This document shows, piece by piece, positions 10,643 to 37,100 of a DNA stretch of 58,294 nt. The number at the start of each line of letters is the position of its first letter. Position 1 is the stretch's first letter. Origin of the DNA: a virus; IMG/VR virus record IMGVR_UViG_3300025767_000021, positions 1 to 58,294 of that record. One strand, given 5' to 3'. The translations under genes and the position numbers were made by a program. Below the pieces are notes generated by a model that was given only the letters and a program-made list of their open reading frames with translations, was not told where the DNA came from and did not search any database.

Positions 10643-11227
10643 ATGAATTCTATGGATAAACAATGTATTTATAAATTAACTTCACCAAGTGGAAAAGTGT
10701 ATATTGGTAGAACCAACGATTTTAATCGTAGGATGATTGAGCACAAATTCAATTCTGAAAAGAGATACAAAGAAAAATACGATTATGCATTATATAAAGC
10801 TATTCGTAAATATGGTTGGAATAACTTTGAAAAAAATATTTTATTTGAAACATCCGATTTAGAAGTATTAAAAAAAGTTGAAGAAGAATTTATATTAGCA
10901 TATGATGCTGTAAAGCGGGGGTATAATAACATTTATGGTTCTGATGGTGGGGATGTGTATAAGGATAACCCAGAGAGATTACAACGAATGAAAAAAATAA
11001 ATAGCGAAAAATTTAGTGGTGAAAAAAATCCAATGTACGGCAAAACTCATTCGGATGAAACCCTAAAAAAACTTCAACAAAAGGCCAAAGGTAGATTCTC
11101 TTTAGATTGGTACATAGATAGAAATGGAAAAGAAGAGGGTACTCGTTTGTATGAAGAACGAAGAGTGTGGTTAAAGAGTAGAAATCTTAAAAAAGATGAA
11201 AACGGAAGATTTCTAAAGGCAAAATAA
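10643..11227 (+). CDS. GIY-YIG homing endonuclease with NUMOD3-like DNA-binding part
   Basis: 194 residues. The N-terminal nuclease domain shows CIYKLTSPSGKVYIGRT (the paired GIY/YIG tyrosines), the RRMIEH arginine segment and a glutamate in VEEEFILAY (~residues 5-95). The middle has GEKNPMYGKTHSDET, a NUMOD3-type motif, and the C-terminus has WYIDRNGKEEGTRLYEER, seen in other phage homing endonucleases. It is a free-standing intergenic endonuclease after gp23, beyond the terminator, with its own promoter-like motif. There is no sign that it interrupts a gene. ATG 10652 is an alternative start that leaves more room for a leader. Such genes usually spread by cutting endonuclease-free relatives near the insertion site. 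Confidence 0.9.
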   Translation: MNSMDKQCIYKLTSPSGKVYIGRTNDFNRRMIEHKFNSEKRYKEKYDYALYKAIRKYGWNNFEKNILFETSDLEVLKKVEEEFILAYDAVKRGYNNIYGSDGGDVYKDNPERLQRMKKINSEKFSGEKNPMYGKTHSDETLKKLQQKAKGRFSLDWYIDRNGKEEGTRLYEERRVWLKSRNLKKDENGRFLKAK

Positions 11228-16755: not shown

Positions 16756-19700
16756 ATGGCTAGATTAATACCAAGAAAACAGGTTGAAGAGGTACAAGAT
16801 TTTATCAGAGATACCTCATTTGCTGGAAATGTAACAGTTTCCGGTTCTCTTTTAGTATCTCAGAGTTTTTCAATGGGTTCAAACCCAAACACTGTATCTG
16901 ATATTACTGGTTCGGTATTCCTTACGGGTTCCCTTACTATCGATGGTCCTCTTAATGTTGTTGGTGACCAAGCCGTAAATCTTACATCTTCAATTTCATT
17001 GGAATCATTGGATTCTCAAAAATTTGGTGGAATAAGACCTGAAGATTTTGGAGCAATGGATGCTACTCTTTATGTATCCTCAACTTCTGGTGATGATAAT
17101 AACGATGGTAGAACTCAACAATTCCCACTAAGAACTATTAAGAAAGCGGCTGAATTGGCAACCGCTGGTGATGATGGTAGATATGGGTTACCAACTGGTT
17201 CATTGTTTACGGGTTTCCGAATCGAAGTTTCCGCTGGTACTTATTTGGAAGAAAACCCAATCGAACTCCCAAGAAACACAACGGTTTGGGGAGCTGGTTT
17301 AAGGGTTACTAAAGTTGTTGCTAAGAATGAAAACGAAGATTTATTTTGGGTAAATAGTGGTAACTATTTAGCAGAAATGACTTTTGCTGGATTAAGAGTA
17401 TTTCCATCCGTTGATAATGCTAGAAGTGGATTCGCTATTGCATTCGCTCCAAACGCATTTATCACAACATCTCCATATGTTCAGAACTGTTCGATGATTT
17501 CCAATCAGGAAAACTCATTCTTAGAGAAATACGAAACAATTCCAGCTGGTGGTGGTGGTTTGAATGTAGATGGTAATAGAATTCATCCCGATTCACCTCT
17601 TGCTTCTATGGTATTGGATGCATATACTCAGATTGCGCCAAATGGTGTGGGTTGTCAAGTTGTTGGTAGAGGATTCATTCAGTTGGTATCTTTCTTCACC
17701 AACTTCTCAGCATACGCAGTGAAGGTATTAGATGGTGGACAAGCAGTACTACTTAACTCAAACACCTCATTTGGTGATTTTGGTATGTATGCTAGTGGTT
17801 CTCGTTTCATCACAGGTAGTGGTGGTAATATCGAAGCATTCAATAGAGTAAGGGATAATTATACTATTATCATCGATACGATTGAGGATGGGTTATCTGC
17901 TATTCCTGAATTTGTTCCTAACACAAATCAAGGTATCAAAGTAACCGATGAGTTACAATATTTTATTAGTGGACAATCTTCGGATGCTATAGCTGAGCAG
18001 GCAAAATCTGAATATAGACTGGTTTCAAATATTGTTGAAAGTGGTATTTCAAATATACCAACACTATTAGCTAAATCAGCAACTAGAGGATACAACACTG
18101 GTTCCGTTTGGAATATCTCCAATGGTATCCAAACAACAGGTTCGGTATCAGCCACATCAACCGAATTAAATATTATAGATGATAGATTCACAAAAGTAAA
18201 GGAAACTTTAAGACTAGGTAACAGAGCAACTTCTAGCTATACTTTAGTTGATAACATTGTTGGTTTGGTAAAAGCAACAGACGAAATACAATATGTGGGT
18301 TCTGATGCGGCAACTTCGGTTGAAGTGGATATAATCAATAGGCATTTTAACACCATTTTGAGTATAGTTGAATTCGGATTAAATGATACAAACAATCCAT
18401 TAAGTCCATTCACTTCATCAAATGCTGGTAATATTAAGATAACAGAGACACCTCAATTTATAACTGATATTTCATCATCATTGGCTGTACAACAAAAGAT
18501 AAGTGCTTCTTTTGCAACTGTGTATCAAATTTTAGATTTGGGTAGTGATTATGCTCCTACTATTATTCCAAGTTCTTCATTCGAAAATCCATCTATTGAT
18601 TACCAAAATGGGTACAGTGCATTATTAGGAAACTTATCATTTATTCAAGAGGAAACGATAGCATATCTATCATCTTCTTGGAGCGATTTTGAATATAATC
18701 AAGATACTTGTAAACGAGATTTGGGTTACATTGTAAGTGGTGCAGCACATGATTTACTTTATGGTGGTAATGAGGAATCGGTAAGAAATGGTAATTTTTA
18801 TTATGATATTCCATCGGAAGCAACTTCTTCACAAAAACAACAAACATTAGATGCAATTCGATACGCAAGTGGATTAGCTCAAAAAGTAATAAGTAATGTT
18901 ACTTTTATAGAACCATCTATAAATGTTGAAAATGCATATGATTTATTAGTAAACAATAAAACATTCATTCAAGAAGAAGTAATTGCATTTGTATCATCTT
19001 CTTGGAGGGGGTTTGATTACAATGAAGTAACTTGTAAAAGAGATGTAGGATATATTATAGATGCGGTAGCAACCGATTTAAGATATGGTGGTAACGAACG
19101 AAGTTTAATTGCGGGTAGATATTATTATGATTACCCATCTGAAGCAACTACAACTCAGTTATTACAAACTACCGATGGTATTGAATGGGCACGAGATTTA
19201 TCTAAAAAATTAATTGTAAAGGATACATTTGTATCACCATCTTCAATCAACCAATCGGTATATGATTTGATTGTTGAAAATAGAAGTTTAATTCAAGAAG
19301 AAACTGTAAGGTTTGTAGATACTCAATTCCCTAACTTAGTTTATCTAAGAGATAAATGTAGAAGAGATACGGGATATATTTTAGATGCGGTAGCAACTGA
19401 CCTTCTTTATGGTGGTAACCAAAAGAGTATTAGAGCCGGATTATATTACCAAGCTGTATCAGTTGATAAGGTTAATGGTGAACAATTAAATGAAACCATT
19501 GATGCTATTTCTTATGCTAAATCATTTGTTGATAAGGTAGTTACAAATGAATTAGTGGAAATACCACAACTCGTTGATAATACCAAAGCTAGAGTTAGGG
19601 CAGGTGATATCCTTCCATTTACATCATCATTACTTTCTGGTAGTGAAGATATTAGAGTAAAAGTGAGTTCATCTTTTGGTTTGGTAGAGGATATTATTAA

Positions 19701-22700
19701 AAAGGGAGAAAGTTCATTATTAACTGCAATTGCTGGTAACACACCAAACTTTAAATGGACTATTGATGAACCCAAGTTGGTAACAAATGGTACTATTGTA
19801 ACTTCATCTTCCGATACTTCTAATGTTGAAAATATTGTAACCAATTATGGTATCATAACGGATATAATTACAAATGGTACATCCGTAGCTCCAACTGAAG
19901 TTACCAATTGGACTGGTAGTATTAAAGTAACCGATACAACTCAATACACAAATGGTAGTTCAGTTGCAACTTCTACTGAAGGAACTTTGGTTAGTTCATC
20001 TATTTCAATCGTAAAAACCGCAGTTGAATTGGGAACTGGTTCATTACCTTCTTTACTTGAAAATAGTTCAAGTATTTATGTGGGTGGTGTTGCACCTATA
20101 ACAAACGCAACAACCGCTTCATCTGCGGAAGTAAACAAAGTAAGTTCTTCATTTGCAATCGTATTAGATATTGTAGAAAATGGAACGGGTTCACTTCCAA
20201 CCATAGTTGAAAACATTTCAGAAAATATTAAATTTACTTCGGCAACTCAAATTACAAATTCGGGTAGTGCTGATAGCGATGATGTATCATTTATTTCATC
20301 TTCATTCGCAATTGTAACATCAATTGTAACAAATGGAACTGGTTCACTTCCAACTAAGAGTGATTATGGTTCTCCATTAACCGCATCTAATGTAGTTGCG
20401 GCTTACAACTTATTGATTGATAACATTTCATTCATTCAAGATGAAACAATCGCTTATCTATCATCTTCTTGGAGTACTGCTTCATACGATGAAGCTAAGT
20501 GTAGAAGAGATGTTGGATTTATTGTAAGTGGAGCAGCGGAAGATTTATTACATGGTGTGGTATCTCAATCGGTTGTAAATGGTGAGTTTTATTATAATTT
20601 CCCATCAAAGGCAGAAACTATACAATTAAACCAAACAATTGATGGTATCAATTACGCAAGTAAGTTATCACAAAAAATTGTACAAAACGAATTATTCGAA
20701 ACCGCATCATCCGAAAGAAGAGCCGCTTGGGATTTAATTGATTCCAACATTGAGTTCATCAAAGATGAAACTATACTCTACCTTTCTTCTTCTTGGAGTA
20801 CATTCGATTATAATGAGGTAACTTGTAAGAGAGATGTAGGATACATCTTAGATGCAGTAAGAACTGATATCTACTATGGTGGTAACGAACGAAGTGTAAT
20901 TGCAGGGGAGTACTACTACCTATATCCATCTCAGGCAACTGTTGGAAACGATGGTGATACTGGTGGAGAATTAAACCAAACTTTAGATGGTATCAACTTT
21001 GCACGAAGATTGGCAGAAAAGGTAGTTGAACAAGCTACATTCACTCAACCATCTCAAGCGGTATTGGATGCTAAAGATTTATTAGTAAACAACAAACAAT
21101 TCATCGCTGATGAGGTGGTAGCATTTGTATCATCTTCTTGGAGTGAAGTTGTGTACAATGAAACAACTTGTAAGAGAGATACTGGATACATCTTAGATGC
21201 CGCAATTACCGACTTGGTATATGGTGGTAATGAAAGAAGTAGAGTAGCAGCAGAATACTATTATAGATACCCATCATCCGCAGTAGTGGGTGGTGTTCCA
21301 TCAACAACTCAACAAAAAGACCCAACAGTCGATGCTATTGAGTACTTGGTTGGCATCTCACAACAAATCGTATTAGGAACTACATTTACATCAGCGGATA
21401 GTACAAAAGTTTCCATTGCAAATACTGTTAGAGAAAACAAAGCATACATCCAACAAAGTGTGTTGGATTACATAAATTATAGATACGCATATCTAAACTA
21501 TAACCAATCTAAATGTTATAGAGATATTGGGTTTATCACAGATGCAATCTTAACTGATTTAGTTTATGGTGGTAATCAAAGAAGTATCCAAGCTGGTTCA
21601 TTCTATTACAAATTCCCATCTCAAGCTACTGGCTTCCAATTAGATGAAACTATTGTAGGTATTAACTATGGTAGGGATTTAACCGAAATGATTATTAGAG
21701 GAGCTAAGCAAATTGAAGATTCATTTGATGTGGTTGTTAAGATTATTGAAAGTGGTAGTTCGGTACAAACCGATAAAACCATTGGATTGGCTTATAATGG
21801 TTTACCAATTTCACAAGTGGGTACTCCAAAGAACTCTTATGGTGATAACTTAATCACTACTACTATTGGTACAATTTTACCTGATGATGTAACTGAAGTA
21901 TTGAATGTTGTGGGTGGTATTAAATTTAATGATAACACACAATACTCTTCTTCTATATCAGCATCAGCTACTTTATCGGCTGAAATCTCAGAATCATTCA
22001 GAACTGTAATTGATATTATTGATTATGGTATTAGTGGTTCACAACAAATATCAGGTTCGGCTAACTCATCTTCATATTTTGAAGTAATTACTTTACCGAA
22101 TGATACTGAAGCATTTTATTTTACACAAGAACAACTTCAATATTTTGATGGAAGAAATGGTTGGAGATTGGGTGGTGAAGATACTGGTTCATTCGAAGGT
22201 TCAATTAAAGACCCAACTATTACATTGGTTAGAGGGGAAATGTATAATTTCTCAATCAATGATATGGGATTTGAAGATAGTACAATCAATAGACCATTGT
22301 TAATCAAAACTAAGAGAACTGCTGGTACTGTTTATGATGTATATGAAAGTATTGGATTGGTAAACAATGGTATCACATTTGGTACAATTACTTTTACACC
22401 ATTAGCTGATACGCCTGATACACTTTACTATGTAAATCCAAATAATATTTCGGCAAGTGGTGTAATCAATATTGTAGATAGTTTACCACTTTCAGATGAG
22501 CAAGAATTGGTATATGTTCCAACTAAGGGTGAGTTTGAAAAAGTATTAAATACTGCTGGTAATATCAAAGTATCAACAGCTACTCAATACACTTCTTTAT
22601 TGAACGCTTCTATTAGTGAAAGAAATAATATTAGTTCTTCAATTAGTACTGTAATTAATGTATTGGAAAGTGGAAGTTCAGTAGCACCAACTATTGTAAA

Positions 22701-25700
22701 AACAATTGATGGTTTGATTAAGAGAGGTGATGTGAATCAGATAACTTCTTCATTAAGTATTTCATCTGGTACACTTTCAAAAATATCTTCATCATTTGCA
22801 ATCGTATTGGATATTATCCAAAATGGAACTGGTTCATTGCCAACTCAAATCGATAATACAACTGAAGGTATTAAAGTAACTAATCTATCTCCGGGTATTG
22901 GAGAACTTGAGGATTACACTGGTATTTTACCAACAATATCCGCATCATTTGCAATTGTATCTGATGCAATATTAAATGGAACTGGTTCAACACCAACTGC
23001 ATCACTTTATGGTTCTCCAGTAAATGATACTGATATCATAACCGCATATGGTTTGATTACCTCAAGTGTAGCATTTATTCAAGCTGAAACAATAGCTTAC
23101 TTATCATCATCTTGGTCAACTTTCGAATACAACGAAGCAAGTTGTAGTAGAGATGTTGGATATATCGTAAATGGTGTGGCTGAGGATTTAAGATATGGTG
23201 TAGTATCTGCATCGGTGGTAAACGCTAAGTACTACTATGAATTCCCATCTGAAGCAACATCATCACAAGCAAATCAAACAGTAGATGGTATCAACTATGC
23301 ATATAGATTGACCGAACAAATTATCAAAGGTGTATCATTCGTAACTGCATCACAAGATAGATTGGATACTGAAACTATCATTAGAAATAATGTGAACTTT
23401 ATCAAAGAAGAAGCAATCACATTCTTATCTTCAAGCTGGTCTACATTTGATTACAACGAAATTACTTGTAAGAGAGATATCGGATACATCTTAGATGCTA
23501 CCATTACTGATATTGTATATGGTGGTAACGAAAGAAGTATCAACGCAGGTGTATTCTATTACAAATATCCATCTGAAGCAACTGGTTCACAATTATTCCC
23601 AACATTGGATGGTATTCAATATGCTGGTGAAGTTACTAAAGAAGTGGTTAGTGGTTCAATATTTATCGAACCATCTTCAGTTAAATTAAACGCATACGAA
23701 TTAGTACATCAAAATAGAGAACTAATCCAAGATGAAGTAATTTCTTACATCTCATCTTCTTGGAACTCATTTGATTACGATGATGTTAAGTGTAGACGAG
23801 ATGTAGGATACATCTTAGATGCAGCAACAACTGATTTCATCTACGGAGGAAATGAGAGAAGTGTAATCGCTGGAGATTTCTATTATAGATATCCATCACA
23901 AGCAACGGGTTCACAATTGAATCAGACAGTAGATGGTATCGTTTACGCTCAGAGATTGGCGGATAAAATGTTAAGTAACACTCTCTTAGTAACCGCATCG
24001 TTGGAAAGAAGAGAGGTTTATGATTTAATTGAACGAAATAGAGAATTAGTACAAGATGAGGTAATTTCTTACATTTCATCTTCTTGGGTTGGATTTGATT
24101 ACGACCAAAACAAATGTAGAAGAGATGTTGGGCATATCTTAGATGCCGTTGCAACTGACTTGAGATATGGTGGTAACGAAAGAAGTGTTATTGCTGGTGA
24201 GTACTATTGGTTATACCCATCGGATGCAACTGAAGGACAGAAAGTAGAAACTATCGATGGTATCGTACATGCAGCTAACTTAGTTCAAAAGATTGTTCAG
24301 AATGTGGTACTACAATTACCATCATCCGATAAGTTGGAAGTTTGGAATACTATTAGAAACAATAGAACACTAATCCAAGATGAGACTGTTGAGTATATTG
24401 ATTATGCATTCCCATTCTTAAACTACAATAAAACAAAATGTAGAAGAGATGTTGGACACATTTTGGATGGTGTAGCAACTGATGTTCTATGGGGTGGTAA
24501 CCAAAGAAGTGTGAAGAGTGGTGATTTTTATTATAGATATCCATCATTAGCAACCGGTGTTCAAATTGAAGAAACTATTGCTGGTATCAGATACGCTCAA
24601 AGTTTATTGAAAAATATCGTAGTTGATAATACTTTAGAATCACCATCATTAGTTCTTAATACGGATGGAAACATAAGGGTAACTTCATTTGAACCTACAT
24701 TATCTTCAATTGCATTGAGTGGTTCATATCAAACCGAAGTTAGTAAATCGATAGATAGTGTAACTGGAATTATTACAACTGGAATTAAATCGTACACTCC
24801 AACTACTGCAACTTACAATCCTGCAACTGGTGATTTCGCAATGACAATCGTAAGACATGGTTTAAGTGTTGGTGATAGTATCTATCTAAAACCTGAATCA
24901 TTCACATTCACTTGTGAAATGGATGGTAATAGAACCGAACACAAATTACCTTCAGCTGGACAACCTGCATACGATAGTAGATTAACCATTAAATCAGTAA
25001 CATCAAACACTGTAACTGTAAATGTTGGAGCATCTGGTCCAAACATTGAGTTCAACCCAACTAACGCATCTTATGACCCAGCAACTGGTGATTTCGTAAT
25101 CACTGTTGGGGAACATACTTTAAGTGTTGGTGAGGGGGTTGTACTTGCAACTGGTTCATTCGCATTTACTTGTGAAATGGATAATAACCAATCGGTTAAA
25201 TCTTACCCTCGATTTGGAATCGACCAATATTCAGTTCGTTCATTACCAATCACTGCGGTAAGTGATACTACGATGACAGTAAATGTTGGAGCATCTGGTC
25301 CAAACAAATACTTCACACCTGTATCTGCCTCTTACAACGCATTAAGTGGTGATATGACTCTGACTGTAAGTGAATCATTCGGATTGGGAGTTGGTAGAAG
25401 TGTGGTGTTAGAAAACGAATCATTCGCATTCACTTGTGACCAAGATGGTGATTTAACAACTCACTCTTATCCAAGAAGTGGTTCAGACCCATACGCTGAA
25501 AAATCAATTGTGATTACTTCAGTTGGTACAACATCACATACTCCAACCGATGCTCCTTACAACCCATCAACTGGTGTGGTAACATTAACAATTGCAAATC
25601 ACGGATTTAGTAATGGTGATTATGTGAAAGTTGATGATGGTGCATTGACTTATACTTGTGTATCTGATAACAACCAAACCGAACATTCGTACCCAAGAGC

Positions 25701-28700
25701 TGGATATGATTATCCATCTGGTAGATGGTTGGAAATTTCTAATGTAACTACAAACACATTCGATATCAATGTAGGTTCTTCATCTTACTTAGGTGAACAC
25801 ACATTCATATCAGCAACTACAAATGGTATTAAGAGACAAGATGGTACATTCACAATCAATGTAGGAGATGCTGGAAGTGCTTCTGGTTCAATCCATACAT
25901 TCGTATCAGCTTCACAAAATGCAGTTAAGCACGAACCACAATCGGTTCATACTTTCGTATCGGCATCAAACGGAGCTGTGAAACACTTACCACAATCTAC
26001 TCACACATTTGTGAGAACACAACGAGATTCGGTAACTACATTACCTGTATTAACTGAATCAATTGAGGGATTAATTAAGATTAACGATATCGAACAATAC
26101 ACATCATCATTAAGTGGTAGTGAAGTTGAGGCAGGATATGTAACTCGTAGTGTAGGATTCATCAACGATATTATCAGATTTGGAACTGATGATATTCCAT
26201 TCGCATTAGCTAAGTGGTATGATGATACTTTAGATGTACCTCAAAACTTAACTACTGGTTCTTATGTAACCGCTAGTGGTACTTACACAACTACAACTGA
26301 GTTTGGTATCGTAAGTTCATCATTTGGTCAAATTATCAATATTATTGAAAATGGTATTGGTTCATTGCCAACATTGGTGAACAACTCATCTAACAATATT
26401 AAAGTAACTGATACAACTCAATTTACTTCTTCACTAAGTGGTTCATCAACCGAACTTTCGAAAGTGAACGCAAGTGTGGGTATCATTGAAAATATTGTTC
26501 AAAATGGATTGAGTGTTAAACCTACAATCGTATTTAACAACTCAGATAGAACAAACTTAATCAAAGTAACTGATACTGCACAAATCACATCAGCTAGTTT
26601 TGGTGATAGATTACAACAAAGATTGATTTCATCATCAATAGCAGTTGTTCTTGATATTGTGGAAAATGGTACTGGTTCATTACCAACTATTGAAGATTAT
26701 GGTGATGCATCTGATGCACCAAAAACAATCGCAGCTTATAACTTATTAAAGTTAAACATTCCGTTTATTCAATCGGAAACAATCGCTTACCTATCTTCTT
26801 CTTGGAGTAATTTGGATTATAATGAAGCAAGTTGTAGTAGAGATGTTGGATTGATTATCTCAGGCGCAGCAGAGGATATGTTACATAACTCACTTTCTGC
26901 TTCAGTTGTAAATGGTAAGTTCTACTATGAATTCCCATCTGCAGCAATTGTAAGTGGTAGTTCATCACCAACATCATCCGCACAATTAGTACCAACTTTA
27001 GATGGTATTAAATACGCTGGTAGAATGGCTGAGAACATCGTAAGAGGATATACTTATGTAACTTCTTCACAAGCGGTTTCTGCTTCAGTAGAATTGATTA
27101 GAAACAACAAAGAATTCATCAAAGAAGAAACAATCGCATTCATCTCTTCATCTTGGAGTGATTTTGATTACAATTCCGTAACTTGTAAGAGAGATGTTGG
27201 TTTTATCTTAGATGCGGTAGCAACTGATTTACTTTACGGAGGTAACGAAAGAAGTGTAACCGCTGGTGATTTCTATTATAGATATCCATCTTCGGCAATC
27301 GTAGGTGGTGTACCTTCAGCAACTCAACAAAAAGACCCAACGGTAACTGCAATCGATTTCGTTCAAAATATGGTAACTGAAGTGGTTAGTGGTTCGGTAT
27401 TCGTAACCGCATCTTCGGAAGTTGAATATGTGTACGATGCACTTCGATTGAATAGAGGATTTATCCAAAACGAAACTATTGCATTTGTAAACGCTAAGTA
27501 TCCAAACTTAGATTACAACGAAGCAAGTTGTAGAAGAGATACTGGATTCATCGTAGATGCGGTGGCAACTGATTTAAGATGGGGTGGTAACCAAAGAGCA
27601 TTAACTGCTGGTGAATTCTATTATAGATTCCCATCTCAGGCAACTGGATACCAATTAACCGAAACTGTTGATGCACTAATCTACGCTAGAGATTTAAGTG
27701 AGAAAATCATTGATAAAGAAACTCTATTTGTTCCAACTGGAAGTTTGAATACCGATAATGGAATCAAAGTAACTTCATTCTCACCTGCAACTGGTGGTAG
27801 TGTAACTGATATTTCAGTTCTTAACACAATTTCATCTTCGTTCGCAATTGTATCGGATGCAATCTTAAATGGAACGGGTTCAACCCCAACCGCATCGGCG
27901 TATGGTTCTCCATTGACAAGTTCAAACATCGTAACTGCTTACGGATTGATTACTGCAAGTGTACCATTCATTCAAGCGGAAGTTGTAGAATATATCTCAT
28001 CTTCTTGGGTTGGATTTGAATACGATGATGTTAAATGTGCTAGAGATGTAGGATTTATTGTAAATGGTGTTGCAACCGATTTATTACATAATTCAGTTTC
28101 CGCATCAGCTACAAATGCTAGAGAGTATTATAGAGCAACTAAATTATCTGAAGCAACTGGTTCACAAAGAATGCAAACATTTGATGGTATCAATTACGCA
28201 TACCAATTGACAGAACAAATTGTGAAAGGCGTAACCTTTGATTTCCCAACAACTCAGATATCAGCATCTGTATCATTGATTAGAGGTAACAAACACTTTA
28301 TCCAATCGGAATCAATCGCATACCTAAGTTCGTCTTGGGAAGGATTTGAATATAACCAAGAAACTTGTAAGAGAGATGTAGGATATATTGTAGATGCAGT
28401 AGCAACCGATTTACTTTATGGTGGTAACCAAAGAAGTAAGATTGCTGGTGAATTCTACTACAAATTCCCATCTAACGCAACAACTTCAGAATTAGAACCA
28501 ACTATAACTGGTATCAAATACGCTGGTGATGTGGCAAGTAAATTGGTACAAAACGAAGTATTTGTAACCGCATCTGCTGAAAGAGTAGCTGGAAATAGAG
28601 TAATCTTAGATAATAAAGAATTTATCCAAAACGAAGTAATCGCTTATGTATCTTCTTCTTGGAGTGATTTCGATTATAACGAAGCTAGTTGTAGTAGAGA

Positions 28701-30189
28701 TGTGGGTTACATCCTCAACGCAGTGGCAACTGATTTCCTATATGGTGGAACTGAAAGAAGTAGAACCGCTGGTGAATTCTATTACCTATACCCATCTGAA
28801 GCAACTGGTTCTCAGTTAATTCAAACTATCGATGGTATCAACTACGCTGGAACATTGGCTAGAAAAGTAATGGAGAACACAACCTTCACTACCGCATCTT
28901 CTGAAGTATCCGCATCGGTTGAATTATTGAGAAACAATAGAAGTTTCATCCAAAACGAAACTATCGAATTCATCTCATCTTCTTGGAGTAATGTGGTTTA
29001 CAATGAGGATAAGTGTAGAAGAGATACTGGATACATTGTAGATGCTGCAGCAACTGATTTACTTTATGGTGGTAACGAAAGAAGTACAACCGCAGGATTG
29101 TTCTATTGGAGATATCCATCAAGAGCAACCGTAGCTGGTGTACCATCTGAAGCTAACCAATTAGACCCAACTGTGGATGGAATCAGATTCGCAAATGGAA
29201 CTGCACAAAATGTGGTTCAAAACTTAGAATACACAACTCCATCAACGGCAACATTAAATGGTATTGATTTATTAAGAAACAACACAACTTTCATTCAGAA
29301 AGAAACGATTGCTTACTTATCTTCTTCTTGGAGTGAATTCCAATACAATGAAGTAAGTTGTAGTAGAGATTTGGGATACATCATTGATGCTGTGGCAACC
29401 GACTTGAAATATGGTGGTAACGAAAGAGCAGTTCAAGCTGGTACTTTCTACTACTACATTCCTTCAATCGCAACAACGGAACAAAAACCACAAACAACCG
29501 ATGGTATTGATTTCGCTAAAGGATTGAGTGAAAAGGTAATTAAACAAACTCAATTAGTATTCCCATTCTTATTAAATAGAAATGGAGCAAATGCACTTAG
29601 AGCGGCCAAAAAAGATTTACAAGGTAAAGCAATTACATATACAAACGCAGCATTCCCTGATTTTATATATAATGAGGAAAAATGTTATAGAGATACTGGT
29701 TTCATCGTAGATGCTATTGCAACTGATATTATCTATGGTGGTAATGAAAGAAGTATAAGAGCAGCCCAATCATATTACACTGGTGTGTATGGAAGTGCAG
29801 CTGTTGTTGTAAATGAACAAAAGTATGAAACCGCAAATACAAATAGATATTTAAGAACACAATTCCAATTTGTGGCTAGACAGGGTCCTGTTGAAGAATT
29901 TGGTTCTCTAATTATTACAACTGGACATGATTTCTCATATGCTGGTGCTGGTGTAACTTATAAAGCATTACCTCCTAACCAAGGTGGTGATGGTATCCCA
30001 GACCCTAATAAAGAAATTGTAGAAGTAGCTGGTGGTAGAGTATTCTTTACTTCTGGTAACGAACTTGGTGACTTTAAGATTGGTGCTGGACTTATAATTA
30101 AACAGGCAACTGGTACATTAGAAGGTAGAACATTCTCTAAATCGTTATTCTCATTAGTAACACCATTCTCATTGGCACTTCAAGATTAA
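16756..30189 (+). CDS. Giant repetitive virion protein (4477 aa), C-x-R-D-x-G repeats
   Basis: One uninterrupted 13.4-kb frame. N-terminal ~100 residues resemble a fibre anchor (VTVSGSLLVSQSF). Residues ~105-370 look like a right-handed beta-helix (LYVSSTSGDDNNDGRTQQFP, then ELPRNTTVWGAG). About 21 copies of a ~108-aa helical repeat follow in five cassettes, each copy holding one Cys in C-x-R-D-x-G, then Asp-Leu-x-Tyr-Gly-Gly-Asn and a Tyr-Tyr-x-x-Pro-Ser. Between cassettes are linkers with SSSFAIVLDIVENGTGSLPT, a cupredoxin-like domain (~1775-1908) and a four-fold FTC repeat (~2678-3018). The last ~130 residues (HDFSYAGAGVTYKALPPNQG, RTFSKSLFSLVTPFSLAL) are a distinct end domain I recall from T4-like cyanophage structural proteins. 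A very long fibre or whisker is inferred; no enzymatic role is visible. A small diverged relative of the repeat is encoded next. Confidence 0.85.
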   Translation: MARLIPRKQVEEVQDFIRDTSFAGNVTVSGSLLVSQSFSMGSNPNTVSDITGSVFLTGSLTIDGPLNVVGDQAVNLTSSISLESLDSQKFGGIRPEDFGAMDATLYVSSTSGDDNNDGRTQQFPLRTIKKAAELATAGDDGRYGLPTGSLFTGFRIEVSAGTYLEENPIELPRNTTVWGAGLRVTKVVAKNENEDLFWVNSGNYLAEMTFAGLRVFPSVDNARSGFAIAFAPNAFITTSPYVQNCSMISNQENSFLEKYETIPAGGGGLNVDGNRIHPDSPLASMVLDAYTQIAPNGVGCQVVGRGFIQLVSFFTNFSAYAVKVLDGGQAVLLNSNTSFGDFGMYASGSRFITGSGGNIEAFNRVRDNYTIIIDTIEDGLSAIPEFVPNTNQGIKVTDELQYFISGQSSDAIAEQAKSEYRLVSNIVESGISNIPTLLAKSATRGYNTGSVWNISNGIQTTGSVSATSTELNIIDDRFTKVKETLRLGNRATSSYTLVDNIVGLVKATDEIQYVGSDAATSVEVDIINRHFNTILSIVEFGLNDTNNPLSPFTSSNAGNIKITETPQFITDISSSLAVQQKISASFATVYQILDLGSDYAPTIIPSSSFENPSIDYQNGYSALLGNLSFIQEETIAYLSSSWSDFEYNQDTCKRDLGYIVSGAAHDLLYGGNEESVRNGNFYYDIPSEATSSQKQQTLDAIRYASGLAQKVISNVTFIEPSINVENAYDLLVNNKTFIQEEVIAFVSSSWRGFDYNEVTCKRDVGYIIDAVATDLRYGGNERSLIAGRYYYDYPSEATTTQLLQTTDGIEWARDLSKKLIVKDTFVSPSSINQSVYDLIVENRSLIQEETVRFVDTQFPNLVYLRDKCRRDTGYILDAVATDLLYGGNQKSIRAGLYYQAVSVDKVNGEQLNETIDAISYAKSFVDKVVTNELVEIPQLVDNTKARVRAGDILPFTSSLLSGSEDIRVKVSSSFGLVEDIIKKGESSLLTAIAGNTPNFKWTIDEPKLVTNGTIVTSSSDTSNVENIVTNYGIITDIITNGTSVAPTEVTNWTGSIKVTDTTQYTNGSSVATSTEGTLVSSSISIVKTAVELGTGSLPSLLENSSSIYVGGVAPITNATTASSAEVNKVSSSFAIVLDIVENGTGSLPTIVENISENIKFTSATQITNSGSADSDDVSFISSSFAIVTSIVTNGTGSLPTKSDYGSPLTASNVVAAYNLLIDNISFIQDETIAYLSSSWSTASYDEAKCRRDVGFIVSGAAEDLLHGVVSQSVVNGEFYYNFPSKAETIQLNQTIDGINYASKLSQKIVQNELFETASSERRAAWDLIDSNIEFIKDETILYLSSSWSTFDYNEVTCKRDVGYILDAVRTDIYYGGNERSVIAGEYYYLYPSQATVGNDGDTGGELNQTLDGINFARRLAEKVVEQATFTQPSQAVLDAKDLLVNNKQFIADEVVAFVSSSWSEVVYNETTCKRDTGYILDAAITDLVYGGNERSRVAAEYYYRYPSSAVVGGVPSTTQQKDPTVDAIEYLVGISQQIVLGTTFTSADSTKVSIANTVRENKAYIQQSVLDYINYRYAYLNYNQSKCYRDIGFITDAILTDLVYGGNQRSIQAGSFYYKFPSQATGFQLDETIVGINYGRDLTEMIIRGAKQIEDSFDVVVKIIESGSSVQTDKTIGLAYNGLPISQVGTPKNSYGDNLITTTIGTILPDDVTEVLNVVGGIKFNDNTQYSSSISASATLSAEISESFRTVIDIIDYGISGSQQISGSANSSSYFEVITLPNDTEAFYFTQEQLQYFDGRNGWRLGGEDTGSFEGSIKDPTITLVRGEMYNFSINDMGFEDSTINRPLLIKTKRTAGTVYDVYESIGLVNNGITFGTITFTPLADTPDTLYYVNPNNISASGVINIVDSLPLSDEQELVYVPTKGEFEKVLNTAGNIKVSTATQYTSLLNASISERNNISSSISTVINVLESGSSVAPTIVKTIDGLIKRGDVNQITSSLSISSGTLSKISSSFAIVLDIIQNGTGSLPTQIDNTTEGIKVTNLSPGIGELEDYTGILPTISASFAIVSDAILNGTGSTPTASLYGSPVNDTDIITAYGLITSSVAFIQAETIAYLSSSWSTFEYNEASCSRDVGYIVNGVAEDLRYGVVSASVVNAKYYYEFPSEATSSQANQTVDGINYAYRLTEQIIKGVSFVTASQDRLDTETIIRNNVNFIKEEAITFLSSSWSTFDYNEITCKRDIGYILDATITDIVYGGNERSINAGVFYYKYPSEATGSQLFPTLDGIQYAGEVTKEVVSGSIFIEPSSVKLNAYELVHQNRELIQDEVISYISSSWNSFDYDDVKCRRDVGYILDAATTDFIYGGNERSVIAGDFYYRYPSQATGSQLNQTVDGIVYAQRLADKMLSNTLLVTASLERREVYDLIERNRELVQDEVISYISSSWVGFDYDQNKCRRDVGHILDAVATDLRYGGNERSVIAGEYYWLYPSDATEGQKVETIDGIVHAANLVQKIVQNVVLQLPSSDKLEVWNTIRNNRTLIQDETVEYIDYAFPFLNYNKTKCRRDVGHILDGVATDVLWGGNQRSVKSGDFYYRYPSLATGVQIEETIAGIRYAQSLLKNIVVDNTLESPSLVLNTDGNIRVTSFEPTLSSIALSGSYQTEVSKSIDSVTGIITTGIKSYTPTTATYNPATGDFAMTIVRHGLSVGDSIYLKPESFTFTCEMDGNRTEHKLPSAGQPAYDSRLTIKSVTSNTVTVNVGASGPNIEFNPTNASYDPATGDFVITVGEHTLSVGEGVVLATGSFAFTCEMDNNQSVKSYPRFGIDQYSVRSLPITAVSDTTMTVNVGASGPNKYFTPVSASYNALSGDMTLTVSESFGLGVGRSVVLENESFAFTCDQDGDLTTHSYPRSGSDPYAEKSIVITSVGTTSHTPTDAPYNPSTGVVTLTIANHGFSNGDYVKVDDGALTYTCVSDNNQTEHSYPRAGYDYPSGRWLEISNVTTNTFDINVGSSSYLGEHTFISATTNGIKRQDGTFTINVGDAGSASGSIHTFVSASQNAVKHEPQSVHTFVSASNGAVKHLPQSTHTFVRTQRDSVTTLPVLTESIEGLIKINDIEQYTSSLSGSEVEAGYVTRSVGFINDIIRFGTDDIPFALAKWYDDTLDVPQNLTTGSYVTASGTYTTTTEFGIVSSSFGQIINIIENGIGSLPTLVNNSSNNIKVTDTTQFTSSLSGSSTELSKVNASVGIIENIVQNGLSVKPTIVFNNSDRTNLIKVTDTAQITSASFGDRLQQRLISSSIAVVLDIVENGTGSLPTIEDYGDASDAPKTIAAYNLLKLNIPFIQSETIAYLSSSWSNLDYNEASCSRDVGLIISGAAEDMLHNSLSASVVNGKFYYEFPSAAIVSGSSSPTSSAQLVPTLDGIKYAGRMAENIVRGYTYVTSSQAVSASVELIRNNKEFIKEETIAFISSSWSDFDYNSVTCKRDVGFILDAVATDLLYGGNERSVTAGDFYYRYPSSAIVGGVPSATQQKDPTVTAIDFVQNMVTEVVSGSVFVTASSEVEYVYDALRLNRGFIQNETIAFVNAKYPNLDYNEASCRRDTGFIVDAVATDLRWGGNQRALTAGEFYYRFPSQATGYQLTETVDALIYARDLSEKIIDKETLFVPTGSLNTDNGIKVTSFSPATGGSVTDISVLNTISSSFAIVSDAILNGTGSTPTASAYGSPLTSSNIVTAYGLITASVPFIQAEVVEYISSSWVGFEYDDVKCARDVGFIVNGVATDLLHNSVSASATNAREYYRATKLSEATGSQRMQTFDGINYAYQLTEQIVKGVTFDFPTTQISASVSLIRGNKHFIQSESIAYLSSSWEGFEYNQETCKRDVGYIVDAVATDLLYGGNQRSKIAGEFYYKFPSNATTSELEPTITGIKYAGDVASKLVQNEVFVTASAERVAGNRVILDNKEFIQNEVIAYVSSSWSDFDYNEASCSRDVGYILNAVATDFLYGGTERSRTAGEFYYLYPSEATGSQLIQTIDGINYAGTLARKVMENTTFTTASSEVSASVELLRNNRSFIQNETIEFISSSWSNVVYNEDKCRRDTGYIVDAAATDLLYGGNERSTTAGLFYWRYPSRATVAGVPSEANQLDPTVDGIRFANGTAQNVVQNLEYTTPSTATLNGIDLLRNNTTFIQKETIAYLSSSWSEFQYNEVSCSRDLGYIIDAVATDLKYGGNERAVQAGTFYYYIPSIATTEQKPQTTDGIDFAKGLSEKVIKQTQLVFPFLLNRNGANALRAAKKDLQGKAITYTNAAFPDFIYNEEKCYRDTGFIVDAIATDIIYGGNERSIRAAQSYYTGVYGSAAVVVNEQKYETANTNRYLRTQFQFVARQGPVEEFGSLIITTGHDFSYAGAGVTYKALPPNQGGDGIPDPNKEIVEVAGGRVFFTSGNELGDFKIGAGLIIKQATGTLEGRTFSKSLFSLVTPFSLALQD
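18600..19560 (+). repeat. Cassette A: 3 C-x-R-D-x-G repeats
   Basis: Cys codons near 18709, 19030 and 19357, about 324 nt apart. First copy is the SGAA type, last copy lacks SSSW and has TQFPNLVY before the Cys. Confidence 0.8.
20385..21720 (+). repeat. Cassette B: 4 C-x-R-D-x-G repeats
   Basis: Cys codons near 20497, 20821, 21170 and 21510. The opening copy has VSGAAEDLLHGVV in place of the GGN motif; the closing copy has YRYAYLNYN in place of the SSSW segment. Confidence 0.8.
22075..22485 (+). other. Cupredoxin-like domain, degenerate (in 4477-aa protein)
   Basis: ITLVRGEMYNFSINDMG, then GTITFTPLADTPDTLYYVNP. The framework matches the intact copy in the 3645-aa protein, but the Cys, His and Met ligand positions are replaced. 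Confidence 0.5.
23020..24630 (+). repeat. Cassette C: 5 C-x-R-D-x-G repeats
   Basis: Cys codons near 23141, 23465, 23790, 24113 and 24437, at almost exactly 324-nt spacing. Opening copy NGVAEDLRYGVV, closing copy DYAFPFLNYN. Confidence 0.8.
24790..25810 (+). repeat. Four-fold FTC beta repeat
   Basis: Four ~85-aa units, each with Y-N-P-x-x-G-x-x then a strand, then FTFTC / FAFTC / FAFTC / LTYTC followed by an acidic Asp-Gly/Asn turn and Y-P-R (absent in copy 1). Followed by four HTF-(V/I) short repeats to ~26040. Confidence 0.7.
26720..27720 (+). repeat. Cassette D: 3 C-x-R-D-x-G repeats
   Basis: Cys codons near 26830, 27180 and 27526. Opening copy SGAAEDMLHNSL, closing copy AKYPNLDYN. Confidence 0.8.
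27915..29800 (+). repeat. Cassette E: 6 C-x-R-D-x-G repeats
   Basis: Cys codons near 28032, 28362, 28687, 29011, 29360 and 29680. Opening copy NGVATDLLHNSV, closing copy AAFPDFIYN. The longest cassette. Confidence 0.8.
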
Positions 30190-30224: not shown

Positions 30225-31082
30225 ATGGCAGAACAAATTGCACTAAACTCATTTAAATCGGTACTTACCACTCTAACTGGTGATGATGATATTGTATATA
30301 CTACTCCAACTGGAGTTTCTACAATCTTATTATCAGCACAGGTAACTAATACTGGTACTACAAATACACCAATTACTATGAAAATTACAAGTAATAGGGA
30401 ATTACCAACACCGCAAGTTGATGATATTATCAATAGTGGTAGTTTTATAAGTGCATCTGCTTTAATTGCAAAAAATCAAACTTTTATTGAAAAAGAAGCC
30501 TCAGCTTATATAAATTTTCAAAATAATTTACAAATTCTACCATTTAGTTTTACTTCTTCATTTTTTGAAGGATATGTTAGAACGGCTGTAAATGGTGTTG
30601 AGGATGATTTAATTGAGGGTGGAACTTTACAATCACGAAAAGCAGCACTTTCATACTATAACAAAAATGGAGAAATTTTAATACCTGATGATTATTACAC
30701 AGCATCATATCAAGCGATTGATTATGCGAATAAAATGATTCAACAAATACTTATTAATGAATCAATAACTGGTTCAGTTGATATATCAAGAATTTACAAT
30801 GATAATTACACTCAATCGTTCGATAATACATTAATTGCTGAAAGTGGTTCAATTACTGCTTCTTTGGAATTATTCAATGCTATATCGGAAACAATTTCAA
30901 ATCCAACAAGAGTTTTACAATCTCCTATTGATTTGATAACAAGAGTAACTATACCAGCTGGCGATTCACTATCTCCCATTGTGGCAGGTAAGTTAGTATT
31001 GGAGCAAGATTTTTCATTAATTATGTCGGGTTCAGCCGATTTAACGGTGATATTATCGATTCTTGAAAGTGCTAATGAATAA
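30225..31082 (+). CDS. Virion protein with nested domains (YTTP beta domain split by a C-x-R-D-x-G-like unit)
   Basis: 285 residues; GGAAAAAGATAAAG before ATG. The first ~65 residues (DIVYTTPTGVSTILLSAQVT) and the last ~55 (TIPAGDSLSPIVAGKLVLEQ, ending LTVILSILE) together match the whole 110-aa protein at 43832, which has the same order without interruption. The middle ~160 residues (IAKNQTFIEKEASAYI, VNGVEDDLIEGGTLQSRKAA, YQAIDYANKMIQQILI) match one unit of the 4477-aa protein but lack the Cys and the C-x-R-D-x-G signature. It looks like a small structural domain carrying an inserted repeat. An adaptor between giant proteins is conceivable. Confidence 0.75.
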   Translation: MAEQIALNSFKSVLTTLTGDDDIVYTTPTGVSTILLSAQVTNTGTTNTPITMKITSNRELPTPQVDDIINSGSFISASALIAKNQTFIEKEASAYINFQNNLQILPFSFTSSFFEGYVRTAVNGVEDDLIEGGTLQSRKAALSYYNKNGEILIPDDYYTASYQAIDYANKMIQQILINESITGSVDISRIYNDNYTQSFDNTLIAESGSITASLELFNAISETISNPTRVLQSPIDLITRVTIPAGDSLSPIVAGKLVLEQDFSLIMSGSADLTVILSILESANE

Positions 31083-31108: not shown

Positions 31109-34100
31109 ATGAGCCAATTATTAAGCGGAAAGGTTAAAGTAGTAAGACCTACCGATGTTTCGGAGGACAGGTATGAATATCTACGATTAAATGAAGCAGA
31201 GCCAAACTTAGGTGTTCCTGAGAGTGGTTCTATTTCATCGGGCTCAATCGCATTAGTTGCTTCTGATGCGGATGGTAATCGTTTATTCGTTACTACACTT
31301 CAATTAGACCAATTTAGTGGTTCATTTAGTGGTTCTTTTGCTGGTGATGGTTCTGAATTAAACAACCTCCCAGATGTACCACAATTAAGAAGTGGTTCGG
31401 TATCCGCTTCCATCGCTCCAAATACGGGATTCTTAGTAAACACATCAGCATCATTCTTTGGTGATATTGATGTAGATGGTACTGCAAGAATTACTGGTGA
31501 TTTAATTGTTGATAATCGTATTGTAGCAAGAGAGATTATTGTTGAAATTATCTCATCTTCTATTATTTTCTCCACAGGTTCAAACATTTTTGGTGATGAA
31601 TTAACCGATAGACAAATATTCACTGGTTCGGTTGAAATGACTGGTTCATTGACCGTAGATGGTAATACAAATATTACTGGTTCAGTTGGTATTATTGGTG
31701 GAGTTGGTATATTAGGAAATACAACAATATCGGGTTCTGTATTTGTATCTGAAAGTATAGAAGCAAACATAATTTCAGCATCTATTTTTAGTGGTAGTGG
31801 TGAGGCATTATTTAATATTCCTCAATCTGCACTTTCTGATAATTCTCCATTAATTGCTAGTGGGGCTGTAACGGCATCTACTGAAAATAATGTCTTTACT
31901 GTAACTTCGGTTGAAAGTGGTTCTATATTTAGTGGTAGTATTCAACTAAGTAGTGGTTCGGTATTTAGTGGTAGTGGTGCTGAGTTATTCGATATACCTC
32001 GTTCTGCATTAGCACCTGATGCATTACAATCACCATTGATTGTAACGGGTTCGGTAACTGCATCAGTTTCAACCGATGGATTCTTCAGAGTGCAATCTAC
32101 GGGTTCAGTAACAACTGAATTAAGCGGTTCACTATTTGTTAGTGGGAATGTTCAACTTATTAGTGGTTCATCTTTCTCTGGTAGTGGTGAAAATCTATTT
32201 AATATTCCAAAATCAGCACTTACTGAAGATGCACTTCTTTCAAATTTAATTACAACGGGTAGTGTAACAGCATCTGTTTCGGAAGATGGATTCTTTAGAG
32301 TATTTGGAACTGGTTCGGTAACATCTGAATTTAGTGGTTCGGTATTTGTAAGTGGAGGTGTACAACTTAATAGCGGTTCTGCTTTTAGTGGTAGTGGTGC
32401 TAATCTTTTTGATATCCCTCGTTCGGCATTAACCGAAGATGCTAGATTATCAAATTTAATCACTACTGGTTCAGTATCTGCATCTGTATCTGAGGATGGA
32501 TTCTTTAGAGTATTTGGAACTGGGTCTGTAACAACCGAATTAAGTGGTAGTGTATTTGTAAGTGGAAATTTACAATTAAATAGTGGTTCTGCTTTTAGTG
32601 GTTCGGGTGAAAATTTATTTAATATCCCACAAGCCGCTTTAGCATTTGAAATCAATAGAATTACAAGTGGTAGTGTAACGGCATCTGTATCTCCAAATGA
32701 AGGATTTGTAGTAATTTCAGAAGATAGTGGTTCAACCTTTAGTGGTTCAATTTTCTTATCATCTGGTTCATTCTTTAGTGGTAGTGGTGAGAACTTATTT
32801 AATATTCCAAGAGCAGCACTTACTGAAGATGCTCTTCTTTCGAATAGAATTGTAAGTGGAGCAGTAACTGCATCGGTTACACCTGAAGATGGCTTTGTAG
32901 TAACTTCCGTTGAGAGTGGTTCAACATTCATTGGCTCGGTTGATGTAACTGGTAGTGTGAATATACCATCTGGAAGTGGATTCTTTAGTGGTAGTGGTTT
33001 AGGGTTATTTGATATCCCAGAATCAGCACTTGCTTTTGAAATTAATAGAATCACAAGTGGTTCAGTAACTGCATCAGTTGACCCTAATGCTGGGTTTGTG
33101 GTAATTTCGGAAGATAGTGGTTCTACATTTAGTGGTTCGATATTCTTAGCTAGTGGTTCATTTATTAGTGGTAGTGGCGAACAATTATTTGATATACCAT
33201 TCTCAGCACTCTCAGATGAAGCTCAAAACGCAATCGAATCTCTATTATCTGTTCAAGCTGGAAGATTAGCAACTGGTTCGGTAACCGCATCGGTTGACCC
33301 TAATGATGGATTCGTTGTAGTATCCGAATTAAGTGGTTCTACTTTTAGTGGTAGTGTTTTCCTAAGTAGTGGTTCATTCTTTAGTGGTAGTGGTGAAAAC
33401 CTATTTAACATACCTCGTTCAGCCTTAGTTGAGGATGCACTTCTTTCAAACTTAATTACAACAGGTTCAGTAACCGCATCGGTTTCAACTGATGGATTCT
33501 TTAGAGTACAGGGTACTGGTTCTGTAACAACTGAATTGAGTGGTTCATTATTTGTAAGTGGAAATGTAGAAATTAACAGTGGTTCATCATTTAGTGGTAG
33601 TGGTGCTAACTTATTCAATATCCCAAGAACAGCACTAACCGATGATGCACTTATTTCAAATCTAATTGCAACTGGTTCAGTAACCGCATCAGTTTCAACT
33701 GATGGTATATTTAAGGTATATTCAACTGGTTCTGTAAAATCAGAATTTAGTGGTAGTGTATTTGTATCAGAATCATTAGAAGCTAAAAAAATAACAGCCG
33801 ATGAATTTACTGGTTCATTTAGTGGTTCATTTGCTGGTGATGGTTCACAACTTAATAATATCCCACAATCAGCACTTTCTGAGGATGCAAATAGGATAGC
33901 AAGTGGTTCAGTAACCGCATCGGTTTCTCCAAACTTTGGATTTGTAGTTAATAGTTCTGGTTCAATTCAGGGTGATTTAACTGTTGATAATGATTTATTT
34001 GTAGGTGGTAGGATTACCGCACAAGAACTTTATGTAGATTTCATTTCATCATCTATTATTTACTCATCTGGTTCAAACATATTCGGTGATGATAGTGGAA

Positions 34101-37100
34101 GTGATACTCAAAAATTATTTGGTGAAACTGAAGTATATGGTAATATATCCGCTAGTGGTTTTATTACATCAAGTGGATTTGTAGGAGATGGTTCTGGATT
34201 ATTTAATATTCCACAATCAGCCCTTTCAGATAATTCACCATTAATTGCTAGTGGTGCAGTAACTGCATCTACTGAGGATGAACTATTTAGAGTAATATCT
34301 GTTGGTAGTGGGTCTATATTTAGTGGTTCAATTGAAGTTAGTGGTAGTGTACAATTAAGTAGTGGGTATGCATTTAGTGGTAGTGGTGAGAACTTATTTA
34401 ATATCCCACAATCAGCACTTTCTGAAGATGCTGCTAGAATAGCAAGTGGTTCAGCAACTGCATCCATTTCACCAAACTTAGGATTTGTAGTAAATACATC
34501 ATCATCTATTGAGGGTGATTTAAATGTAATTGGGACAACATCCGCATCTATCTTTAGTGGTAGTGGTGAATCTCTATTTAATATTCCACTATCTGCAATT
34601 ACTGAAGAGGCATTTAGAATTGTAAGTGGTAGTGTAACTGCTTCGGTTGACCCGAATAGGGGATTTGAAGTAAATTCAACTGGTAGATTTGATGGGGGTA
34701 TAACTACAAGTGGTAGTTTAATAGCATCATCATCGCAAGCAGTAATTCCAACTGGTTCTCTACTAACCACATTTGACATTGCAAACAATGGTTCATCTGA
34801 TTATGTATTTAGTGGGGCAATCGATGGAAATGACCCTACATTAACTTTAGTTAAAAATGTAACCTATACATTCAACATAGATGCAGAAGGGCATCCGTTC
34901 TACATCAAATCCGTACCAGGTACAACTTTAACAGGTGTAATTACTGGTTCTCAGATAGACGGATTTAATGGTACTGATAGTGGTTCATTTACATTTACTC
35001 CAACTGGTAGTAGTGTAACTCTTTACTATAATTGTAGTATCCACTCAACGATGGGTAATTCTATTTCTTTAGTTGAAGAAATATATGAAGATGAAATCCC
35101 ACATACACTAATTGGTTCAGTTAATGTAATTGGAAATCAAAAAATAACTGGTTCACTTTCAACAACTGGTGATATTGATACAACCATTGTAAGAGCAACT
35201 GAATTTAGTGGTTCGTTTAGTGGTAGTGGTGCTAACTTATTTGATATTCCACTTACCGCACTTGCGGAAGATGTTGTTAGAAGAACTTTCATTGCTAGTG
35301 GTAGTGTAACTGCATCAACTGACCCATCATACGGATTTAATGTAAATACTTCAGCATCTATTGATGGTGATTTAGTAGTTGGTGGTGGTTTAAATGTATC
35401 ATCATCTGTTATTTACGAAACATTACCGGTTTCACATTCGGTAATTGTATCTCAAAGTAAATTTGTGGTAGATGGTACATCACAAAAAATATTAAAAGTT
35501 GTAAAGGGCACATCTTATTATTTTAATTTATCGGATAGTACTAATATTGGAAACACTTTAAGATTATCAACAGTTTCTGATGGAATTCATAATGGAGGTA
35601 CTTTGGAATATACCACAGCTGTGGTATCAAGTAGTGTATTGCCGGGTAATAGTGGTGCATTCCTAAGTTTCATACCAACTGGTAGTACTCCAAATACTTT
35701 ATATTACTATTCGGAAGAAACAGCTTCCTATGGTGGTGCAATTTTAGTTTACAACTCTAAACCTGAAATAACAAGAAATATATTTACTGGTGATGTAGAT
35801 ATTACTGGTAGTTTAGATGTTACTGAAACTATCACATCAAATGAATTAATAGTAAACAAAGCAAGTGGTTCATTTAGTGGTTCATTTGCTGGAGATGGTT
35901 CTCAACTAAGAAACATACAGGCTGATTTATCACCTGTAATTGCTAGTGGTTCGGCAACAGCTTCAGTTGAAAGTGGTGATACATTTATTGTAACTGCACT
36001 TAACAGTGGTTCTAGATTTATTGGTAATGTTGATGTAAGTGGTAGTACAACCATTGGATATAATACTGGTAGTACTAACTTAGTAGTTACTGGTTCAGTT
36101 AAAGTTCAAGATACTGTAACTGCGGGATTCTTCGTAGGTGATGGTTCACAACTTGATAATGTACAAGCGGCAGCTGCTCCTCTTATCGCAAGTGGTTCGG
36201 CAACAGCTTCGGTAGCTAGTGGAGATACTTTTGTAGTAATCTCACCACTTAGTGGTTCTGTATTTACTGGTTCGGTATTAATAACTGGTTCATTTGATGT
36301 TGTTGATGGTATAATTAGTGGTGATGGTAGTGGATTAACAAACATTTCAATTGCCAACTTATCATTTGATACCGCTCGTTTAGCAACTGGTTCATATACT
36401 GCATCAATTTCACCTGATGGTGAATTTAAAGTATTTGATACGGGAATTACTGGAAGTGTACTTACATCTTTAAGTGGCTCTCTTAATGTATCGGAATCAT
36501 TAACTGTTGGTGGAATTATTACTGGTGATGGTAGTGGTATTACAAATATTGATATTGCTAACTTAGCAATTGATTCATCAAAAATCTTCACAGGTTCAGT
36601 ATCGGCATCGGTTTCGGAAGATGGATACTTCAGAGTATTTGATAATGTTGGTGGTTCGGTTATTTCGGAATTTAGTGGTTCTGTATTTATTTCGGAATCA
36701 ATATCAGCATCCCTTTATCAAGGTGATGGTGGCGGATTATATAACATTCCATTGGATGCACTTGAGGATTTACAATTAAGTAGAATCAATTCTGGCTCTG
36801 TAACCGCATCAGTTGACCCTAATTTGGGTTTTGTTGTAAACTCTTCAATTAGTGGTACATTATTCGTAGGTGATGGTGGTGGATTATTTAACATTCCTGC
36901 TGAATCTTTAGTAGACTTAGAATTACCACAAATTGTATCTGGTGCCATATCTGCCTCTGTTAATCCTGAATATGGATTCGCTGTTTATTCTCCACTTAGT
37001 GGTTCTACATTTACTGGTAGTTTATTTATTAGTGGGAACACAACAATACCATCTGGAAGTGGGTACTTTAGTGGTAGTGGTGAGGGATTATTTAACATTC

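Follow-up and report, generated by a model that had tools for sequence, protein, structure and literature searches.

Candidate capped stacks of phycobiliprotein-like domains in a giant tail-fibre-type protein of an uncultured T4-like phage

The window analysed here, a stretch of 58,294 nucleotides comprising positions 1 to 58,294 of IMG/VR record IMGVR_UViG_3300025767_000021, comes from an uncultured, T4-like phage and carries on its plus strand an open reading frame (ORF) of 4477 amino acids (16756..30189) in which a repeat recurs in groups whose first and last copies differ from those between them. Two questions follow, namely what the repeat is and why its copies should follow a rule of position. 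In profile searches the ORF was found to be homologous to annotated phage tail-fibre families, with matches to PHROG 5342 (tail fiber, E 1.7e-271) and PHROG 4527 (short tail fiber, 8e-179), and to short tail fiber genes of cyanophages. As the annotation is that of relatives of an uncultured phage, its product is described here as a tail-fibre-type protein that is probably located in the virion tail. The N-terminal 605 amino acids gave one weak match and no useful name in Pfam and PDB searches.

A scan for the pattern C.RD.G.I placed 21 units between residues 652 and 4310 of the ORF, with a spacing of 108-117 amino acids within cassettes and gaps of 381, 543, 798 and 169 amino acids between them, giving cassettes of 3, 4, 5, 3 and 6 units. 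This spacing bears out an earlier note, made from the DNA alone, that had described about 21 units of about 108 amino acids in the same five groups. By pattern scan and alignment, cassette 1 (18577..19554) consists of an opener, one middle copy and a closer, cassette 2 (20368..21711) of four units, the second of which is missing in one relative (L001), and cassette 3 (23011..24636) of five. Cassettes 4 (26701..27726) and 5 (27904..29880) hold three and six units, and all five lie on the plus strand. A degenerate single unit that has lost its CxRD motif was recognised by HMM match inside the next gene (30429..30758, plus strand; ORF 30225-31082, 285 amino acids).

Other repeats share the protein and its surroundings. 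Between cassettes 3 and 4 stand about four copies of a repeat of about 100 amino acids, YNPATGDF..VxVGxxxxL...FTC (window 24790-25940, residues 2680-3060), a region with a partial match to PHROG 1276. A second, shorter repeat of about 50-60 amino acids (SSSFAIV..IV.NGTGSLPT ... IKVTD..QYT) occupies much of the linkers between cassettes and stands ahead of most cassettes. Downstream, window positions 31109-42046 encode a 3645-residue fibre protein in which collagen-like TSG/SSG triplets take up more than 1000 amino acids (Pfam Collagen, E 3.8e-89), and positions 44175-55049 a fibre-like protein of 3624 residues with SSG/TSG triplets, the C-terminus of which (SDMRLKDKVGDIKNAL...) looks like the self-cleaving intramolecular chaperone domain of tail fibres. 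Between these two genes, a 306-residue protein (42060-42980; PHROG 9915) contains repeated LTSIPSGLFDNNT motifs of leucine-rich-repeat-like character. Far upstream, directly after the major capsid gene, positions 10643-11227 look like a GIY-YIG homing endonuclease gene.

The positional rule was examined across related phages, using IMG/VR scans and annotated cyanophages. Altogether 1355 units were matched in the 109 records searched, which include overlapping parts of the same contig. Complete, non-redundant cassettes of the window and its relatives number 88; sequences counted here and below are related and are not independent events. The tryptophan of the SSSW segment is present in 83/88 openers and 205/212 middle copies and in 1/88 closers, and at the changed SSSW site of closers a proline follows in 86/88. 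This extends what the unit alignment of the window shows, where closers differ from other copies as the earlier note had quoted them (the last copy of cassette 2 reads YAYLNYN). For openers, the quoted variants of the GGN motif are indeed present, with copy 1 keeping GGN, but GGN proved a poor mark of an opener. GG is retained in 26/88 openers, against 204/212 middle copies and 87/88 closers, and GGN was replaced as the opener mark by T56 and R65, which together with D52 and A69 are the sharp marks. One opener of the window, unit 16 (NGVATDLLHN), is an exception that retains T56.

Comparison of class profiles gave top column differences (JSD) of 0.92 and 0.88, compared with at most 0.12 in shuffles. 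Openers are set apart from middle copies most strongly at columns 56 (T to E or others), 65 (R to A/S), 52, 64, 69 and 53, and closers at columns 30-34 and 87. On the helices of the predicted model these columns form two separate regions, one at the end of helix E and in helix F', the other at the end of helix B, in the B-E loop and in part of the last helix. Relatives obey the start/middle/end grammar proposed earlier, and it can be put as a two-part residue code, in which W33 (of SSSW) is present if a unit has a successor and T56/R65 (of DAVA-T-DL..GGNE-R) if it has a predecessor. When non-redundant units were sorted by their neighbours, W33, T56 and R65 were found in 82/86, 2/86 and 3/86 openers, in 183/186, 185/186 and 177/186 middle copies, in 2/87, 84/87 and 79/87 closers, and in 2/75, 2/75 and 4/75 solitary units, respectively.

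The two halves of the code are linked between neighbours. In 362 of 365 non-redundant adjacent pairs, W33 of unit i agrees with T56 of unit i+1 (both present in 332, neither in 30, W alone in 0 and T alone in 3), compared with 103 disagreements between W33 and T56 of one and the same unit. Pairs lacking both residues mostly come from distant phages and have longer linkers between the units. This covariation is as expected of a head-to-tail interface.

A further proposal of the earlier note, that length changes through middle units, finds a direct example in relative L001, the second cassette of which corresponds to the first, third and fourth units of the window's cassette 2. It differs from the window by exactly one middle unit, the second of that cassette, and its other units match those of the window in order. 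Another relative (L002) has no cassette 2 at all. Unit number per cassette varies among other relatives (such as 3,4,6,3,6; 3,7,3,6; 3,4,8; 3,6,3,3,6; 3,4,2,6,3,7), each tail protein having between a dozen and 25 copies. Since the most similar pairs of units within the window protein are only 60-64% identical, recent tandem duplication is not seen there.

The identity of the repeat emerged from profiles of increasing depth. A profile of 18 window units matched only phycocyanins in the PDB, at non-significant E-values of 0.34-0.95. With a profile of 84 diverse units, all of the 60 PDB matches listed were phycobiliproteins (best E 4.1e-6), aligned from helix B across the CxRD motif and up to the GG turn. 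Pfam PF00502 was the top family, matched by 10/84 units at E<=1 (best 1.1e-5), while every other family was matched by at most 2 of the 84; within the window itself PF00502 gave no match at E<=10, and the Pfam gathering cut-off was not reached. Alignment of the 84-unit profile by hhalign with 21 CpcA/CpcB-type sequences, used as read from cyanobacterial genomes, gave 96.3%, E 1.6e-9 over 98 columns, placing unit positions 7-107 on CpcA 34-143. Reversing 24 units abolished the signal (hhalign 0.1%, E 0.54; no phycobiliprotein in PDB), whereas the same 24 units forward gave 84% and 7e-6. As the forward 24-unit profile had no PDB match at 0.01, the phycobiliprotein signal depends on sampling depth.

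Structure prediction agrees with the sequence profiles. AlphaFold2 modelled a single unit, from 69 sequences, as five helices with pLDDT 91 and pTM 0.83, and phycobiliproteins accounted for all 50 PDB matches listed by Foldseek (probability up to 1.00, TM (TMq) up to 0.73, but E 0.1-0.44), so that the phycobiliprotein/globin fold of the unit is one known by prediction. The same domain is present in predicted structures of cyanophage tail proteins. The match covers CpcA 34 to about 143 of 162, and the five-helix model has neither the N-terminal X/Y helices of alpha-beta pairing nor helix H. From these profiles and models we conclude that the unit is a remote member of the phycobiliprotein/bilin-globin superfamily, shortened at both ends, with no N-terminal helices and no final helix. 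Neither this family nor its bilin-site motif had been recognised in the earlier note.

That motif, CXRD, contains the cysteine for covalent attachment in phycobiliproteins and is shared by the bilin biosynthesis-associated globins BBAG-1 and BBAG-3, while BBAG-2 is without it (PMC10151467). CxRD is present in 21/21 window units, each of which has one cysteine, and these account for 21/27 cysteines of the 4477-residue protein. It is also present in 685/689 distinct units of the close group, and in 22 related sequences none of the nine units of cassettes 4 and 5 departs from it. Among distant phages retention is 86% for Cys, 85% for Arg and 95% for Asp, and in the unit of the neighbouring gene CxRD occurs in 0/16 non-redundant copies. 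Such near-invariance in the arrays suggests covalent bilin binding by the units.

Taken together, the best explanation, to which we assign a probability of about 0.72, is that the cassettes are capped head-to-tail stacks of phycobiliprotein-like domains in a tail fibre, with CxRD suggesting bilin binding. Each repeat would be a phycobiliprotein-like domain of five helices, within the globin superfamily. In docking, the SSSW region of unit i (B-E loop and end of helix B) would contact the helix E-F' face (T56, R65 and neighbours) of unit i+1. An opener, having no predecessor, would have lost the receiving face, and a closer, having no successor, the tryptophan. Each cassette would then be a capped helical rod that changes in length by gain or loss of middle copies, and rods and linkers together would form part of the virion tail fibre. 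The earlier term, special capping copies, fits; the packing it implies is read from covariation and not from a model, and the docking geometry is to be taken in the same sense, as the AlphaFold model of cassettes 4 and 5 (1183 amino acids, 22 sequences) was poor (pTM 0.30) and no inter-unit contacts were read from it. As a further step the units would bind bilins covalently, supplied in relatives by a phage-encoded heme oxygenase (HO) and ferredoxin-dependent bilin reductase (FDBR). That the stacks carry bilins is put forward tentatively, with the odds somewhat against it.

Genes for such a supply were sought in related records. An FDBR was present in exactly 4 of 22 searched records, the four array-bearing records over 200 kb, and in all four HO adjoins it; the pair lies far from the array in the same genome, and GroEL- and GroES-like genes were observed close to it (L191, L192). 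The FDBR of array relatives is of PcyA/PcyX type, with PcyX_EBK42635 as best PDB match. A search starting from FDBR found arrays in 12/45 records and in 7/9 contigs of at least 180 kb, the other two large contigs having an FDBR without an array. Among capsid relatives, a control sampling with few large records, the single array-bearing record has an FDBR and the 10 array-free records, among them Mel-JY01, have none. HO and FDBR are both missing from ten cyanophages in which most units are solitary. The co-occurrence of arrays with bilin genes is an association and not proof, coming from small numbers of related phages, and the window's own record covers 58 kb only.

CpeT, of a bilin-lyase-like family, occurs in two related array-bearing records (L189 and L190; G008, G018), where the protein has an apparent signal peptide, and in five cyanophages cpeT is followed within a few kb downstream by the giant gene. 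With regard to other acceptors, no phycobiliprotein-like (PF00502) gene besides the array units was found in these relatives' genomes, and phytochrome was ruled against by the lack of a PHY domain in 13 records. A cyanobacterial host was also considered. None of 22 related records has psbA, and the nearest capsids are those of Flavobacterium phage immuto, Mel-JY01 (Microcystis) and RM378, so that a host among Bacteroidota is the more likely.

The strongest competing account keeps the stacks and removes the pigment, with fold and CxRD inherited and now purely structural, and HO and bilin reductase serving iron release or the host. We regard it as having close to an even chance, a pigment-free structural role being about as likely as bilin loading. 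It needs nothing beyond the class columns, the two-part code and the covariation between neighbours; the unit of the neighbouring gene has lost CxRD but still bears the family signature, HO and FDBR are absent from cyanophages whose units are mostly solitary, and iron supply is discussed in PMC11480375. Structure alone would hardly explain a single cysteine per unit and an exact CxRD that persists in nearly every distinct unit of the close group, despite a median identity among units of one protein of about 45-49%, nor is the co-occurrence of FDBR with arrays expected from it. The fuller proposal, that these phages produce bilins themselves, through HO and a reductase of PcyA/PcyX type, and load dozens of phycobiliprotein-like tail-fibre domains with them, giving virions pigmented stacks, is possible and on the doubtful side.

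A second account, which we consider improbable, holds that the grammar reflects shared descent only, openers and closers being old paralogous lineages kept in place with no interface meaning. The unit tree that the earlier note had proposed bears on this directly. With all columns, one branch (support 85/92) has all five openers of the window to one side and another (89/86) all five closers, and class labels change twice on the tree, the minimum possible, compared with 8.9 times in shuffles. Removal of the interface columns largely abolishes the grouping in the window alone (7 changes versus 9.0 shuffled). Across four phages openers still group without these columns (4 changes versus 17.3), as shared descent predicts, while closers do so only partly (10 versus 17.3). 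These trees indicate that opener and closer classes go back in part to old lineages, and that the differences between them are maintained mainly at particular positions. Descent alone would also have to accommodate solitary units of distant phages that obey the same code, and covariation that runs between neighbours and not within a unit. An unrelated helical repeat matching phycobiliproteins by convergence or chance would suit the weak E-values of shallow profiles (0.34 for the window alone, no 24-unit match at 0.01) and Foldseek E-values at or above 0.1, but is very improbable given that sequence profiles, Pfam and structural comparison all point to a single family, that the reversed control is negative and that the conservation in common falls on the bilin-site triad and the following Gly.

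Capped stacks of this kind can be set beside several known systems. With phycobiliproteins (PF00502; phycocyanin and phycoerythrin chains) the unit shares a helical globin-like core, the CxRD site followed by a GG turn and the predicted fold; unlike them it is phage-encoded, has no N-terminal helices or final helix, stands in tandem in one giant virion protein and has a bilin that is putative. BBAG-1 and BBAG-3 are likewise bilin-globin relatives with CxRD that do not harvest light and are linked to HO and FDBR genes (PMC10151467), but BBAGs are by description cellular and clustered with the enzymes, whereas the phage units are tandem in a tail protein with the enzymes elsewhere in the genome. 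Homologous units occur in the giant tail-fibre-type 'short tail fiber' or 'tail protein' genes of T4-like cyanophages (T4-GC_296, T4-GC_830; S-PM2, S-RSM4, S-CAM1), mostly solitary or spaced and without the opener/middle/closer code. These cyanophage genes are already in databases; among the open-access papers searched, none was found that describes domains of this kind in phage tails or gives a name to the domain or the grammar. The enzyme pair of the array-bearing relatives is that of the phage hemO-pcyX/pcyA cassettes described in PMC11480375, which names no phage-encoded bilin acceptor.

In that study the co-occurrence of hemO and FDBR in aquatic phages is called 'still enigmatic' (PMC11480375); PMC3037559 says of pcyA/pebS that their role in cyanophages 'remains a mystery' and leaves the function of cpeT unresolved. 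For these genes, a bilin-globin-superfamily domain that phages themselves encode, with its attachment motif intact, offers a concrete acceptor to test. If the proposal is true, phage bilin genes would gain an acceptor encoded by the phage itself, and pigmented virion stacks could respond to light, protect against it or be active in redox reactions. Pigment aside, the residue code for first, middle and last copies is a clear natural rule for capped protein stacks of differing length.
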